Source of the DNA: an uncultured Alphaproteobacteria bacterium
GTDB lineage: Bacteria; Pseudomonadota; Alphaproteobacteria; GCA-2731375
Length of the DNA: 64,000 nt
Assembly: GCA_951812805.1 (NCBI GenBank)
Contig: CATOSZ010000005.1
Location: 496,001-560,000, forward strand
Direction: 5' to 3'
The notes beneath the pieces were generated by a model. It was given only the letters and a program-made list of their open reading frames with translations, had not been told where the DNA came from and ran no database searches. Shown here in pieces: positions 37,801 through 43,472 of this stretch; within the stretch, counting starts at the first letter, position 1; every line of letters begins with the position of its first letter. The translations under genes were made by a program, and so were the position numbers.

Positions 37801-38212
37801 AAACCGCCCGGGACGATTTTGATCTTTGCCGCCGGTGCCCAATAATGACGCTTCGGCCGGCAAGTTCCCCGCCGCCCTGTCATAAGGACGAGAGCCGCCA
37901 TGTGCCGTGCATTGGTCTACCTGGGCGAGCCCGTGCTGCTCGACCACCTGCTCTACCAGCCGGACAGCTCGCTGGTGAAACAGTCCTACATGCCGCGGAT
38001 GCTGCCCATGCTCAACCTCGCGGGCTTCGGAATGATGGCCTGGGATCGCGCCTCGATCAACTCGGAGTTGCCGTACCGCTACAAGACGACGACCCTGCCG
38101 GTCTTCGACAGCAACCTGAAGTTCCTCTCCAACAAGATCGAGGCCAACTGTTTCCTCGGCCATGTCCGCGGCGTCGTGCTCGACAGTGCCGTCACCATCA
38201 ACGAGCACAACG

Positions 38213-38222
38213 TGCATCCCTT
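38213..38222. repeat. Target-site duplication, left copy (TGCATCCCTT)
   Basis: The 10-bp word TGCATCCCTT lies directly left of the IS and again directly right of it at 39432-39441. Ten bases is within the 8-10 bp known for ISAs1-family elements. The flanking bases G and C would extend identity to 12 bp, because they coincide with the first and last base of the IS ends. Confidence 0.9.
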
Positions 38223-39431
38223 CAGGGCAATCGCATTTCAGAATTTGCCGAGGAGTGACAGGAGATAGTCGTTGTTCCAAGCGGCGATTTTGAACTTGGC
38301 GCGCAGCGAGTCTTTTCGTGGATCCTTTCGCATGACATTGAGCGCCATGTGGCGCAGGACGGCGAGATTGTGCGGTCCATTGTCCTTGCGGGTTCTGTCT
38401 TGGTCTTCGTTCATTTGGACATCGAGGCACCAGTGCAGGCGGTTTTCGACCCCCCAGTGCGCCCGGGCAACGGGATTGAAGCGCTCGGCGTCGAGCGGCT
38501 GGCTGAGCAGGTAGTAGGCGGTTTCGCTCGACGTCTTCTCCGCGCACTCGCGGGTCCGGGTGACTTTGGCGACCGCCTTCAGGCCCGGCCAATGATGGCG
38601 CTCTTGCAGCCACTCGACGTGGCTGGAGACGAGAGCGGCACGGGTCTCGATGCGGCCATGATCGCCATCGACCGTGGTGTCGGTGGTGGTCGCTTCGGCT
38701 TTCGGATCGTCGAGGAAGGTTCTCACGTCGTCATGCAGCGTGCCTTGATTGCCCTTCAACGCCAGGGCGTAGTCACCCCCCTGCTCGATAATCTGGCTGG
38801 CGATGGCGCGCTGGCAATTGAGGGCGTCCACGGTCACGATCGTCCCCTCGAGGCTCAATAGTTTCAACAGCTTCGGCACGGCGGTGATCTCGTTGGACTT
38901 GGCGTCGGTGGCGACTTGCCCCAACACCAGCCGCTGATCACAGCCCCAGGCCGAGACCATATGCAGCGCCGACGTGCCGCTCGCCTTGTCGTAGGATCGC
39001 CGCACCACCTTGCCGTCGATCGCAATGACCCCTTGGCAGGTCTCGGAAAAGCGCGCCATGAAGCGCTGGAAGCAGGCGCCGAACGCCTCCGGATCCAGCA
39101 ACCGGAACACCCGGCTGAAGGTGTCGTGGCTCGGCACGCCATGTTCGAGTACGAGAAATTCCCGCAGGAACGCCTCCTTTTCACGCGCGAAGATCGCCAT
39201 GTCGACCGCCGTCTGACCGCCCGAGAGGACCGTGCACAGGGCGATCGTCAAGATCTCCAGCAGATCGTGACGCCCGGCATTGCCAGTCCGCGGATCCTCG
39301 AGACCCTCAAAGCACTCCAGAAAGCCTTCCATCGCAACCTCCACCCGTGAAAAGACCGGGTAGAATCGATTCGCGCCAATACCTCAAGATCAAACACGCA
39401 CGTCAAGGCAATTCCAAATGCGATTCCCCTG
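38223..39431 (-). mobile_element. Complete ISAs1-family insertion sequence, copy 3 (1209 bp)
   Basis: Same length, same ends (CAGGGCAATCG left; CAGGGGAATCG right, other strand) and same encoded transposase as copy 1 at 16838. It has inserted in the amidotransferase gene, and the transposase is read opposite to the host gene. Intact duplicated target and identical sequence point to a recent event. Confidence 0.95.
38238..39332 (-). CDS. ISAs1-family transposase (copy 3, intact)
   Basis: A 364-aa transposase identical in sequence to that of copy 1, with Asp106, Asp169 and Glu296 all present. ATG 39332 has GGAGG five bases upstream; a GTG at 39344 is the alternative. The stop lies inside the left inverted repeat. 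Two identical full-length copies in 64 kb suggest several more in the genome and ongoing transposition. Confidence 0.92.
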   Translation of the reverse strand: MEGFLECFEGLEDPRTGNAGRHDLLEILTIALCTVLSGGQTAVDMAIFAREKEAFLREFLVLEHGVPSHDTFSRVFRLLDPEAFGACFQRFMARFSETCQGVIAIDGKVVRRSYDKASGTSALHMVSAWGCDQRLVLGQVATDAKSNEITAVPKLLKLLSLEGTIVTVDALNCQRAIASQIIEQGGDYALALKGNQGTLHDDVRTFLDDPKAEATTTDTTVDGDHGRIETRAALVSSHVEWLQERHHWPGLKAVAKVTRTRECAEKTSSETAYYLLSQPLDAERFNPVARAHWGVENRLHWCLDVQMNEDQDRTRKDNGPHNLAVLRHMALNVMRKDPRKDSLRAKFKIAAWNNDYLLSLLGKF

Positions 39432-39441
39432 TGCATCCCTT
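39432..39441. repeat. Target-site duplication, right copy (TGCATCCCTT)
   Basis: Second copy of the 10-bp duplication flanking IS copy 3. It is also the point where the amidotransferase reading frame resumes. Confidence 0.9.
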
Positions 39442-40041
39442 CTGGTATGCCGGCTGCAAACTCGCGCTCGCCCACAATGGCGATCTCCATCGCTTCGACG
39501 AGATGCGCGACGATCTCCGCCTGCACATCCGCCCCGAGATCGCCCAGCATATCTCCGGTTCGACCGACAGCGAGTGGATCTATGCCGTCCTGCTCTCTCA
39601 GCTCGCCGATCCGGGTGCCTTTCAAAGCAGCGACCAGATCCGCAGGGCCGTCGACAAGACCCTGGCGATCATCGCCCGGGTGCGCGACGCACGCGGCATC
39701 GATACCGCATCGTCCGCCAACCTGTTCATCTCGGACGGCCGGCAAATCTTCGCGGTGCGCTTCTGCTGCGACTTCGGCTGCTATCCCACGCACGACCCGA
39801 CCCGGATCCACGAGGCGAACCTCAACTATCTCAGCCTCTGGTACACCTCGGGCCAGGAGTACGGCTTCTATGACGACGAATGGCAGATGGTCGGCGGTGC
39901 CGCCGCCGCGGACTCGGTCATGGTCGCCTCAGAACCGCTGACCAGCGACGTCGCCAAATGGCTGGAAGTGCCGGAGTACGGCATCCTGCACACCGAGCGG
40001 GCGAACGGCCACGCCGTGACCGAGATCCACTACGTCGATTT

Positions 40042-41040
40042 TTAGAGTGTCTTGCTCCGGGGCGTGCGCAGGACATGGCGCTGGCTCACCAGCATGGCCA
40101 GCAGATTGTCTGCCGTCTTCAGCTGCGAAAGCTGATCCTCGCTCACCAGGTTCTGGAACTTGAGGCAGCCGGGCGTCGTACCGTGAAACAGCGCCTCGAA
40201 GTTCTCCCTGTCGAGGGCGAGCAGGAGAGAGGGCGAGCGGCAGCGCGCATCGCTGCCGTATGCTCGCCCGGAGATCAGGGCGTTGCCGCCGACCAGGCGG
40301 CCCGGCCCCAGCACCGCCAGCTGGTAGCGCCGGTCGCGCATGAGGGCGCGCTCGACCGCACCGCGCAAGACCAGACAGCACGCATCGGCCGCGTCGCCCT
40401 CGCGCCAGAGAAAGTCGCCCCTCGCCGGCTCCAGAATGCGCCCGCGTTCGAGCAGGGCGTCGATCTCGGCCGCCTTGAAACCCTCGAAACAGGGCATGAC
40501 CGAAAGCAGGGGGAGAAAGTTCCGGGGCAGCGACGCCGCCGCCGGTTCGCCATCGCCGGCGTCCGCGCGCCGGGGCCGGTAGGTGCCGCAGTCCCATTCC
40601 TCGACGATCCGCCCCTGCAGATCGTCCAGCCGTTTCGTCATCGTGGTGCTGATGGCGCGCAGGATCTTGAAGGCGGCGGCGCTCAACTGGTCGACGGCGG
40701 CGTGGAAGAAGTGGAACGAAACGGTGAGCAGACGGGAGGGTCGACGCGCCCGCACCGTCGCGGTCCGCGTGCCGCTGTCGACAAGGGCCATCTCGCCGAT
40801 GAGGGCGCCGGGCGCAATCACGCCGAGCAGCGTCTCTCCGCCGCCCGGCAGGGCCTTCACGGCCTCCAGCTCGCCCTCGATCAGGAAACAGGCGGCCCTC
40901 GCCGCCTGGCCCTCGCGATAGAGCAGTTCCCCGGTATCGATCTCAGCCTCGGCGAAACAACCGGCGATCTCCAGCAGCTCCGCCTCCGCCAGATCGCCAA
41001 ACATGGGAAGCGCGCACAGCACACGAACCTCGACGGTCAT
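40042..41040 (-). CDS. Protein with two cyclic-nucleotide-binding domains
   Basis: A 332-aa soluble protein made of two CNBD/Crp-like beta-roll domains. Domain 1 (about residues 8-125) has FLIEGELEAVKALPGGGETLLGVIAPGALIGEMALVDSGTRTATVRA, which fits the phosphate-binding cassette (G-E-M-A-L then R-T-A-T). Domain 2 (about 175-295) has WREGDAADACCLVLRGAVERAL and a degenerate cassette (LVGGNALISGRAYGSDARC). I see no HTH, kinase or channel part, so output is by protein contact or unknown. It starts 4 bp after the desulfurase gene stop, so the two are co-transcribed. Its stop overlaps that of the convergent amidotransferase. Confidence 0.82.
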   Translation of the reverse strand: MTVEVRVLCALPMFGDLAEAELLEIAGCFAEAEIDTGELLYREGQAARAACFLIEGELEAVKALPGGGETLLGVIAPGALIGEMALVDSGTRTATVRARRPSRLLTVSFHFFHAAVDQLSAAAFKILRAISTTMTKRLDDLQGRIVEEWDCGTYRPRRADAGDGEPAAASLPRNFLPLLSVMPCFEGFKAAEIDALLERGRILEPARGDFLWREGDAADACCLVLRGAVERALMRDRRYQLAVLGPGRLVGGNALISGRAYGSDARCRSPSLLLALDRENFEALFHGTTPGCLKFQNLVSEDQLSQLKTADNLLAMLVSQRHVLRTPRSKTL

Positions 41041-41044
41041 GGGG

Positions 41045-42502
41045 TCACGCACTCTTGCGCGTTTCGGCCTCCCTCTCCTCGTCGATTCTGCGCAACTGCG
41101 ACAGGATCTCCGGCAGATGTTCGAAGAGGTAGTCGATGTCCTCCTTCGTCGTCTCGTGGCCGAAGCTGAAACGGATCGTGCCGTATTCGTTGGCATCGAG
41201 GCCGATCGCCTGCAACACATGGCTGACTTTGTCGTCACCGGCGCTGCACGCCGAGCCGGCCGAGACGTAGACGCCGATCTGGTCGAAGCTCAACAGCAGC
41301 GAGCCGCTGTCGACACCGGGAAAGCCGACCGAGAGGTTGTGCGGCAGGCGCGCGTCCATGCAGCCGTTGACGATAGCGCCCGGTACCGTTTCCTCCAGGC
41401 GGGAGAGGAAGCGGTGGCGCAGGAAGTCGAACTTGGCGTTCTGTTCCGCCATTTCCACGCGGGCGAGCTTGGCGGCGAGGCCGAGGGCTAGAATACCGGC
41501 AACGTTCTCGGTGCCCGAACGCAGTCCCTTTTCCTGCCCGCCGCCGTCGATCTGCGGCTGCAGCTTGACCTCGGGATTGAGATAGAGCGCGCCGACGCCC
41601 TTCGGCGCATAGATCTTGTGGCCGGAGATGGTCAGCATGTCGATGTTCATCTCGCCCGGATACAGCCGGATCTTGCCGAAGGCCTGAATGGCGTCCACGT
41701 GGAAGGGAACGCCGCGGTCGCGGCAGACGGCACCGATCTCGGCGACCGGATAGACCGTGCCGATCTCGTTGTTGGCGGCCATGATCGAGACCAGGATCGT
41801 ATCATCGCGGATCGCCGCGGCGACGTCCGCGGCCTGCAAGGTCCCGTCGGCGGCGACGGGCAGGAAGCTCACGCTATAGCCGCGCCCTTCCAGAATACGA
41901 AGCGTGTCGAGGACCGAGGGATGCTCGACATTGGTCGTGATGATGTGGCCGCCTGGATGCTGCTCGGCGATCCCCTTGATCGCCAGGTTGTTGGCTTCCG
42001 TACCGGAACCGGTGAAGAACAGATCTTTCGGCTCGACCTTCAGGCACTTGGCGATGCGCCGGCGGGCCCGGTGCAGCACGTCGTAGGCCAGCCCGCCGAT
42101 ACCGTAGGAACTGCTGGGATTGCCGAAGGAGCGCGTGTCCTGGAAGAACGCAATCAGCGCGTCGGCGACTTCGCGACGGATCGGCGTCGTGGCGTTGTTG
42201 TCGAGATAGACCTCGCGCGGATTGTCGATCTCGATCGTCGCCATCGGCTTGCATCCCTTGTCCGTCGTCTGGATGGGGATGCCGACCCAGGTGTAGACCG
42301 AGGTCAGACCGTTGGGAAAAATATCCTCGATGACCTCGCGCCCGACCCCGGTATTGCGGCCGATGTTGGTATAGAGCGGCCCGACCCGGCGCTCCCGGTA
42401 GTAGCCCCAGGCGTATTCCAGGACGCTCAGATGCTCGGGCGAGAGCTGGGTGCCCGTCGCCTTCGCCATCTGGTGACAACGCATTTTCGCAAGCGCATGC
42501 AT
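41045..42502 (-). CDS. DsrC/TusE-like domain fused to NifS/IscS-type cysteine desulfurase
   Basis: A 485-aa fusion. Residues about 19-86 resemble the sulfur-relay protein DsrC/TusE: LSPEHLSVLEYAWGYY, the GP turn, IFPNG, and the C-terminal motif GIPIQTTDKGC, whose Cys84 corresponds to the single persulfide-carrying cysteine of TusE. Residues about 95-475 are a class V PLP desulfurase: EVYLDNNATTP, NVEHPS (His193), SGHKIYAPKGVG (PLP Lys296) and AGSACSAGDDKVSHVL (catalytic Cys419). Cys84 sits immediately before the catalytic domain, so persulfide could pass in cis. The start is firm: GAGGAG lies eight bases before ATG 42502. It lies between a DUF169 gene and the CNBD gene. The domain assignment comes from motif reading; the relay role is inference. 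Confidence 0.85.
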   Translation of the reverse strand: MHALAKMRCHQMAKATGTQLSPEHLSVLEYAWGYYRERRVGPLYTNIGRNTGVGREVIEDIFPNGLTSVYTWVGIPIQTTDKGCKPMATIEIDNPREVYLDNNATTPIRREVADALIAFFQDTRSFGNPSSSYGIGGLAYDVLHRARRRIAKCLKVEPKDLFFTGSGTEANNLAIKGIAEQHPGGHIITTNVEHPSVLDTLRILEGRGYSVSFLPVAADGTLQAADVAAAIRDDTILVSIMAANNEIGTVYPVAEIGAVCRDRGVPFHVDAIQAFGKIRLYPGEMNIDMLTISGHKIYAPKGVGALYLNPEVKLQPQIDGGGQEKGLRSGTENVAGILALGLAAKLARVEMAEQNAKFDFLRHRFLSRLEETVPGAIVNGCMDARLPHNLSVGFPGVDSGSLLLSFDQIGVYVSAGSACSAGDDKVSHVLQAIGLDANEYGTIRFSFGHETTKEDIDYLFEHLPEILSQLRRIDEEREAETRKSA

Positions 42503-42590: not shown

Positions 42591-43472
42591 CTAGGCCTGC
42601 GCGCTCGCCCCGGCACCGGGATACATCGGGAAGGGAAAACCACCCTTGGAATCCTCCATGCCCTGAATAACGTCCCGCCAAACCGTGTAGGGCATACCGA
42701 TCCCCATGCGGTCGGCCTCGAACTCAGCGATCAGTCGCGCACCGAGACAGAAGGTCGAGACATTCATCTGCTGCGTCAGATACGGCCGGACGATGAGGTC
42801 GGAGTTGACCACGCGCAAGCCTCCCATGGAGGCGTTGACCCGGTTGCCGGTGTGGAACTGATAGGCCTGGATAATGCGCGTCAGCTCGACCGGCCGCACC
42901 GACATCACCACGACGTCCGGCTCGACGTCCGCATCCTCGAAGTCAAGGGCATAAAGAAACACTGCCTGGGTGGTCGCCGGCTGGATAGCCGTCATGTCGT
43001 CCATCGCCCGCCGCGCCGTTTCCGGGCTGTCGTAGCGGCCTGTGTCATCGCCGCCGAACAGCGCGAAATCGGGCCGGCCAGCCGCCGTGCAGGCATAGAC
43101 GGTGCCGTCCGAGAAATCCTTCGGCGTCGGCGGTACGAAGTGTTCCTTGTCGCTGGTCTGCGACTTCATGATATCGGTATAAACGAGGGATTCACCCATC
43201 GGCTTATCTTGATTGCGGTCCACCAGGCCGAAGGTGATCGCTGCGGCAACGCAGCCGATTGACTTGGGCGTCAGCAGCACGGAATCACCGAAACTCGCCT
43301 GCCGCATGCTCTGACAACTCGTAAGCGTCAGGCCGACCGGCTCATAGTCCAGCACGCCCTGCGGAATGTCGTCGCCTTCCTGATAGAACTTGACGCAGGC
43401 GGTCGGCACCTCCAACCCCTCAACGCCCAGCGCCGCAATCATACGATCGTAGTCGTCAGTCACCTGTGTCAT
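42591..43472 (-). CDS. DUF169 family protein
   Basis: A 293-aa soluble protein of the DUF169 (COG2043) family. The characteristic features are a CVKFYQEGDDIPQG segment near the N-terminus, then LTSCQSMRQASFGDSVLLTPKSIGCVAAAITFGL at about residues 50-83 with two conserved cysteines, and a second conserved stretch RPVELTRIIQAYQFHTGNRVNASMGG. Function is unknown. The cysteines suggest metal, Fe-S or sulfur chemistry, but this is inference. ATG 43472 has GGAGG eight bases upstream; a TTG farther up is not needed. It is the first gene of a three-gene run with the desulfurase fusion and the CNBD protein. Base composition is less GC-rich than its neighbours. Confidence 0.8.
   Translation of the reverse strand: MTQVTDDYDRMIAALGVEGLEVPTACVKFYQEGDDIPQGVLDYEPVGLTLTSCQSMRQASFGDSVLLTPKSIGCVAAAITFGLVDRNQDKPMGESLVYTDIMKSQTSDKEHFVPPTPKDFSDGTVYACTAAGRPDFALFGGDDTGRYDSPETARRAMDDMTAIQPATTQAVFLYALDFEDADVEPDVVVMSVRPVELTRIIQAYQFHTGNRVNASMGGLRVVNSDLIVRPYLTQQMNVSTFCLGARLIAEFEADRMGIGMPYTVWRDVIQGMEDSKGGFPFPMYPGAGASAQA

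Follow-up and report, generated by a model that had tools for sequence, protein, structure and literature searches.

Introduction

Sulfur relays normally pass a persulfide between separate proteins. In class I cysteine desulfurases, a cysteine comes to bear this persulfide after the substrate cysteine has reacted on pyridoxal phosphate (PLP), and mobile loops of these enzymes reach acceptors directly. DsrC, which takes sulfur on an arm cysteine, consists of a helix-turn-helix-like helical core and a mobile arm. The E. coli IscS-TusA-TusBCD-TusE-MnmA relay has an IscS-type desulfurase as its first member and involves a TusE-family protein, and E. coli IscS, given cysteine, has been shown to persulfurate the penultimate cysteine of isolated DsrC in vitro (PMC3397948). 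A source and an acceptor of sulfur can also be found in one protein: a natural cysteine desulfurase-rhodanese fusion, CD-Rhd of Pseudorhodoferax, transfers sulfur (PMC8931425).

Here, we describe a locus of an uncultured alphaproteobacterium in which a DsrC/TusE-like domain precedes a desulfurase. It lies in a 64,000-nucleotide stretch of contig CATOSZ010000005.1, hereafter the window. Like CD-Rhd, the protein would combine a desulfurase and a sulfur acceptor in one chain; the acceptor of CD-Rhd is a rhodanese domain, whereas here it is a DsrC-like domain, accompanied by a fixed neighbor gene of the DUF169 family. An earlier sequence-only reading of the locus knew of no described system built in this way. 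For DsrC and a desulfurase this stands, as neither a DsrC-desulfurase fusion nor a DUF169-desulfurase pair is described in the literature searched, which had subscription papers outside its scope. The wider claim of novelty does not, since a desulfurase-rhodanese fusion has been described and assayed (PMC8931425); the principle of joining a desulfurase to an acceptor is therefore not new.

Architecture of the fusion protein

The fusion is encoded on the minus strand (41045..42502) as 485 amino acids in an uninterrupted open reading frame, with an ATG start and no internal stops, and orthologous fusions occur at 15 other loci. Because the same fusion is found at 16 independent loci, an assembly or frameshift artifact is ruled out. 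Separate translation of the desulfurase from Met87 is likewise ruled out, since the fusions do not conserve this methionine and give no indication of an internal start.

Residues 98–485 (41048..42211, minus strand) form a predicted NifS/IscS-type class I desulfurase domain. Pfam Aminotran_5 (PF00266) spans residues 98–459 with an E-value of 1.2e-71, and the nearest desulfurase models are NifS and IscS, although the domain stays under both equivalog cut-offs (437 bits against 531 for the NifS model TIGR03402). It is about 40% identical to other alphaproteobacterial desulfurases. We built an AlphaFold2 model on a 15-row alignment (mean pLDDT 85), and Foldseek matched it to IscS, Nfs1, and NifS at a probability of 1.00, some of the matched chains coming from complexes of IscS with TusA or IscU. 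The residues named in the sequence-only reading are all present, namely Cys84, Lys296 in SGHK, and Cys419 in SAGSACSAG. Lys296 (41615..41617, minus strand), the predicted PLP Schiff-base lysine, is invariant in an S(G/A)HK motif, and Cys419 (41246..41248, minus strand), the predicted catalytic persulfide cysteine, is invariant in 15 of 15 proteins. Sequence and model thus bring together the PLP lysine, the mobile-loop cysteine, and the fold of a class I desulfurase, and the corresponding activity is predicted. In its whole fold, Lys296, and the Cys419 loop, the domain is like the NifS/IscS enzymes; it is unlike them in bearing the N-terminal DsrC-like domain and in its sub-cut-off equivalog scores.

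The N-terminal DsrC relative

The DsrC/TusE-like domain covers residues 1–87 (42242..42502, minus strand). From the window sequence alone, the assignment to DsrC is sub-threshold: Pfam DsrC aligns with residues 9–67 at 18.9 bits, short of its 24.9-bit cut-off (E-value 0.002 when the domain is taken alone), and TIGR03342 gives 14.2 bits against 53.5. The Pfam gathering score is reached by 10 of the 15 fusion orthologues. Searched against the PDB as a single sequence, the N-terminal part matched DsrC of dissimilatory sulfite reductase (2v4j_C, E-value 4e-5), while an hmmsearch with the 15-orthologue profile placed DsrC chains at the top (2xsj_C at 7.5e-9 and 2v4j_C at 8.6e-8). Aligned by hhalign with an alignment of six canonical DsrC proteins, the fusion domain matched over 76 columns with a probability of 97.3% and an E-value of 2e-11. 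The profile match to DsrC/TusE that the sequence-only reading had proposed as a check is therefore found by both methods. The N-domain profile also matched about 90 further Desulfobacterota genomes (E-values 1e-9 to 1e-6), in short frames of the stand-alone DsrC type that score far under two fusions in the same search (133–159 bits). Early weak genome matches to the single sequence proved to be ordinary stand-alone DsrC/TusE or chance, and matches in viral contigs (L051 and L052) and to Crov588 in the PDB were chance or repeat matches.

In the whole-protein model, the domain has helices at 3–16, 22–38, 44–51, 55–61, and 66–73, and confidence is low at 77–82, just before Cys84, and at 418–424, the Cys419 loop. 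Helices leading into an arm modeled with low confidence are what would be expected of a DsrC-like fold, and the model thus goes part of the way toward the fold suggested earlier.

With DsrC/TusE/DsvC (PF04358, TIGR03342) the domain shares the helical core, an FPxG...GIP arm, and one conserved cysteine after it. However, the N-terminal hairpin segment (EFNGKxFxVDEDGFL-type) is absent in all fusions, and the alignment begins at DsrC residue 22. CysB of the DsrC from DsrAB organisms is missing, with Tyr70/Thr71 at its place. The cysteine of DsrC/TusE is penultimate on a free C-terminus, whereas Cys84 is internal, with the desulfurase coming after it in all 16 proteins; the arm is also about 3 residues longer, placing Cys84 farther from GIP, and the geometry may therefore differ from that of DsrC/TusE. 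Finally, DsrC/TusE proteins stand alone, while this domain is fused. Judged by its sequence, the domain is a DsrC homologue in which the working parts of the arm appear to be kept, and it is not a canonical DsrC or TusE, because the hairpin segment, CysB, and the free C-terminus are all missing. In the tree, the fused N-domains form their own group (support 100/100) on a long branch. As a separate observation, G763 encodes proteins of 260–283 amino acids with two tandem DsrC domains (C3:19552-20292 and C45:121201-121938).

Conservation of Cys84 and Cys419

Across 15 aligned whole proteins, no cysteine other than Cys84 and Cys419 is invariant. The Cys84 codon (42251..42253, minus strand; presumed persulfide acceptor) is kept in all 15 and in the sixteenth protein, from L098, so that conservation of Cys84, which the sequence-only reading had made a test of its proposal, extends to 16 of 16 homologues. 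That a DsrC-family relative is joined in cis to a desulfurase is thereby borne out by profile homology and by the invariance of both predicted sulfur-carrying cysteines. In the aligned set, the N-domain residues Met12, His24, Leu28, Tyr35, Val40-Gly41-Pro42, Phe62-Pro63, Gly65, Ser68 to Ile75, Ile77, Cys84, and Lys85 are invariant, and 14 of 15 fusions share a distance of 14 residues from Cys84 to VYxD, where the desulfurase starts. The N-domain is under purifying selection: its dN/dS is 0.05–0.09 between the window and L053 or L054 (dN 0.10–0.11 vs dS 1.3–1.9); for these pairs, the desulfurase domain gives a higher ratio.

This conservation could also be read in another way. The DsrC-like domain could be a docking or regulatory module that recruits the DUF169 protein (or DNA, in view of the helix-turn-helix-like DsrC core) and thereby takes the desulfurase to its client, with sulfur passing directly from Cys419 to the client and Cys84 acting as a redox switch or structurally. 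The VGP and SVYTWVGI motifs are, in the aligned set, conserved as strongly as Cys84, and class I mobile loops can deliver sulfur without an intermediate carrier. However, the site that corresponds to the sulfur-bearing cysteine of DsrC is without exception a cysteine, Cys84, and L098 retains it while Thr71 and Val73 vary. We therefore regard a docking role as unlikely, and favor one in which Cys84 carries sulfur.

From the chemistry of the two families, we infer a persulfide on Cys419 and its transfer to Cys84. The desulfurase domain would take sulfur from cysteine with PLP on Lys296, forming the persulfide on Cys419 in the mobile loop. The DsrC-like domain, on its short and near-fixed linker, would present Cys84 at its arm tip, and Cys84 could accept the sulfur of Cys419 in cis or across the dimer. 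Since donor and acceptor stand in one chain with a short fixed linker, transfer to Cys84 is the simplest reading. With a sulfur source, a DsrC-type carrier, and two invariant cysteines in one chain, the hand-over can be tested in a single purified protein.

The DUF169 partner gene and the spread of the pair

The sequence-only reading was right about the fusion itself but overlooked its neighbor. A DUF169 gene (42591..43472, minus strand, with the Met at 43472 and the stop at 42591-42593) lies directly upstream of the fusion and encodes 293 amino acids (PF02596, E-value 4e-35; 122 bits against a Pfam cut-off of 27). The same arrangement, on the same strand, is found at 16 of 16 loci. The gap is mostly 30 nt or less, or a 4-nt overlap, with wider gaps of 75 nt (L063), 88 nt (window), and 283 nt (L055). 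Divergence of the desulfurase and of DUF169 is correlated (Spearman 0.57, with none of 2,000 permutations as high), as is expected for linked genes from joint inheritance alone. The DUF169 family occurs in archaea and bacteria and has, to our knowledge, no known function; the invariant neighbor thus offers a handle on an uncharacterized family. A second DUF169 gene, unlinked to the fusion, is present in the same genome (G000:C4:25023-25652).

The fusion was searched for with a 51-residue piece of the N-domain against 85,000 species genomes, which gave at least 14 loci (L053–L066), all encoding the full fusion; a later profile search added L098 in G976 as the sixteenth fusion. At least 16 fusions are thus known including the window (at least 15 beyond it), in at least nine phyla: Pseudomonadota, Thermodesulfobacteriota, Planctomycetota (Scalindua), Chloroflexota, Nitrospirota, Myxococcota, Gemmatimonadota, Ignavibacteriota, and candidate division KSB1. 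Phyla were assigned from record titles and tree labels, and single labels may err because most carriers are metagenome-assembled genomes; the spread rests on no single label. The fusion desulfurase domains form one group in the tree (support 76/95). The gene is rare among relatives: it was found in none of 60 relatives of the host genome, in the window genome alone among 385 genomes of the host's class, in 2 of 297 genomes of the phylum of G757, and in 1 of 298 genomes of the class of G758 (both counts including the central genome). Rarity, scatter over phyla, and the constancy of the two-gene unit therefore point to a DUF169-fusion cassette that has probably spread horizontally.

Taking these findings together, we propose, at slightly better than even chances, that the pair is a horizontally spread two-gene sulfur-delivery unit in which Cys419 would hand sulfur to Cys84, which would pass it to DUF169. 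The Cys84 persulfide would be passed to the conserved cysteines of the DUF169 protein (Cys53, Cys74, and Cys242) or to a cofactor or substrate that this protein carries. That DUF169 is the recipient, and how it would use the sulfur, is our guess, DUF169 being named as next acceptor because of linkage alone. Cys53, Cys74, and Cys242 are invariant in the DUF169 partners, but they recur in part in DUF169 proteins unlinked to any fusion, and therefore are not special to the pair. The fuller proposal, that DUF169 and the fusion constitute an undescribed mobile two-component sulfur-transfer system with donor and carrier in one chain and DUF169 as the dedicated recipient, we hold more tentatively, at somewhat under an even chance. 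If true, the dedicated-recipient reading would give this DUF169 subfamily its first function.

The three DUF169 cysteines also raise the possibility of a desulfurase dedicated to Fe-S assembly, with DUF169 as a scaffold or Fe-S protein that holds a cluster by three cysteine ligands and receives its sulfur from the fusion. In the model of the window DUF169 protein (pLDDT 81), Cys53 is in helix 52–60, Cys74 is before 75–81, and Cys242 is before 243–247, so that all three would sit at or just before helix starts, as many cluster-ligand sites do; the closest desulfurase families, NifS and IscS, fit as well. The window DUF169 protein had no sequence match and no usable fold match in the PDB, and thus no fold match to any scaffold, nor was a further isc, nif, or suf gene recognized beside the pair. 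We consider Fe-S assembly improbable, more so than docking; it is compatible with our proposal of sulfur delivery from the fusion to DUF169, as a special case.

Relation to the Tus relay

In the sequence-only reading, the fusion was suggested to bypass TusA and TusBCD. The TusBCD part fits the carrier genomes, since TusB/DsrH is present in 2 of 16 and missing in the window genome, and stand-alone DsrC/TusE is missing in 8 of 15 carriers, including the window genome (98.5% complete), each single absence being weak evidence in draft genomes. Genome content lends no support to the TusA part, since 14 of 16 carrier genomes encode TusA. Nothing ties the fusion protein to the Tus pathway or to tRNA thiolation. 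Compared with the E. coli relay, donor and TusE-like carrier are here joined, TusB is mostly missing, and no link to mnmA is seen.

The fusion could nevertheless be imagined to stand in for TusE in 2-thiouridine synthesis, feeding MnmA directly, as TusB/DsrH is missing from most carriers and DsrC/TusE from many. However, the fusion gene occurs in few, scattered genomes, bacteria lacking Tus proteins generally produce thiouridine in its absence, and its invariant neighbor is DUF169, mnmA not having been recognized beside the fusion. We therefore consider this role very improbable.

Other genes around the pair

Apart from DUF169, no neighbor is widely common to the loci compared, and no isc, nif, suf, or mnmA gene was recognized adjoining the pair. 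A Desulfovibrio nitrate-resistance cluster includes a DUF169 gene (PMC4001038); a nitrate link for the DUF169-fusion pair is suggestive, but we rejected it, as neighbors are not consistent across loci. Upstream of the pair lie a response regulator with an NMT1-like and CheW chain in L057 (5124-7034), an NMT1-like binding protein in L066 (4038-4973), and a molybdopterin oxidoreductase with a PAS/GAF hybrid kinase in L055 (2353-6644). Together with the Desulfovibrio cluster, these genes give hints of anion sensing.

The next gene downstream of the fusion (40042..41040, minus strand) encodes a protein with two cyclic-nucleotide-binding (cNMP) domains (PF00027, two stretches), and its likely start is a few bases past the fusion stop. 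Besides the window, a homologue is found downstream of the fusion at the two closest loci, L053 and L054, only. Family 2 encapsulins have desulfurase cargo and a cNMP domain, and the downstream protein gives a score with their 2B shell model; however, Pfam recognizes nothing but the cNMP domain in it, and for this protein we set an encapsulin link aside. A plus-strand gene for a class II glutamine amidotransferase, located at 37900-40045 of the window, is apparently split by an insertion element, whose transposase is encoded at 38238-39344 on the minus strand (PF13808 and PF01609). In L053 and L054, a full-length homologue of this glutamine amidotransferase adjoins the cNMP gene.
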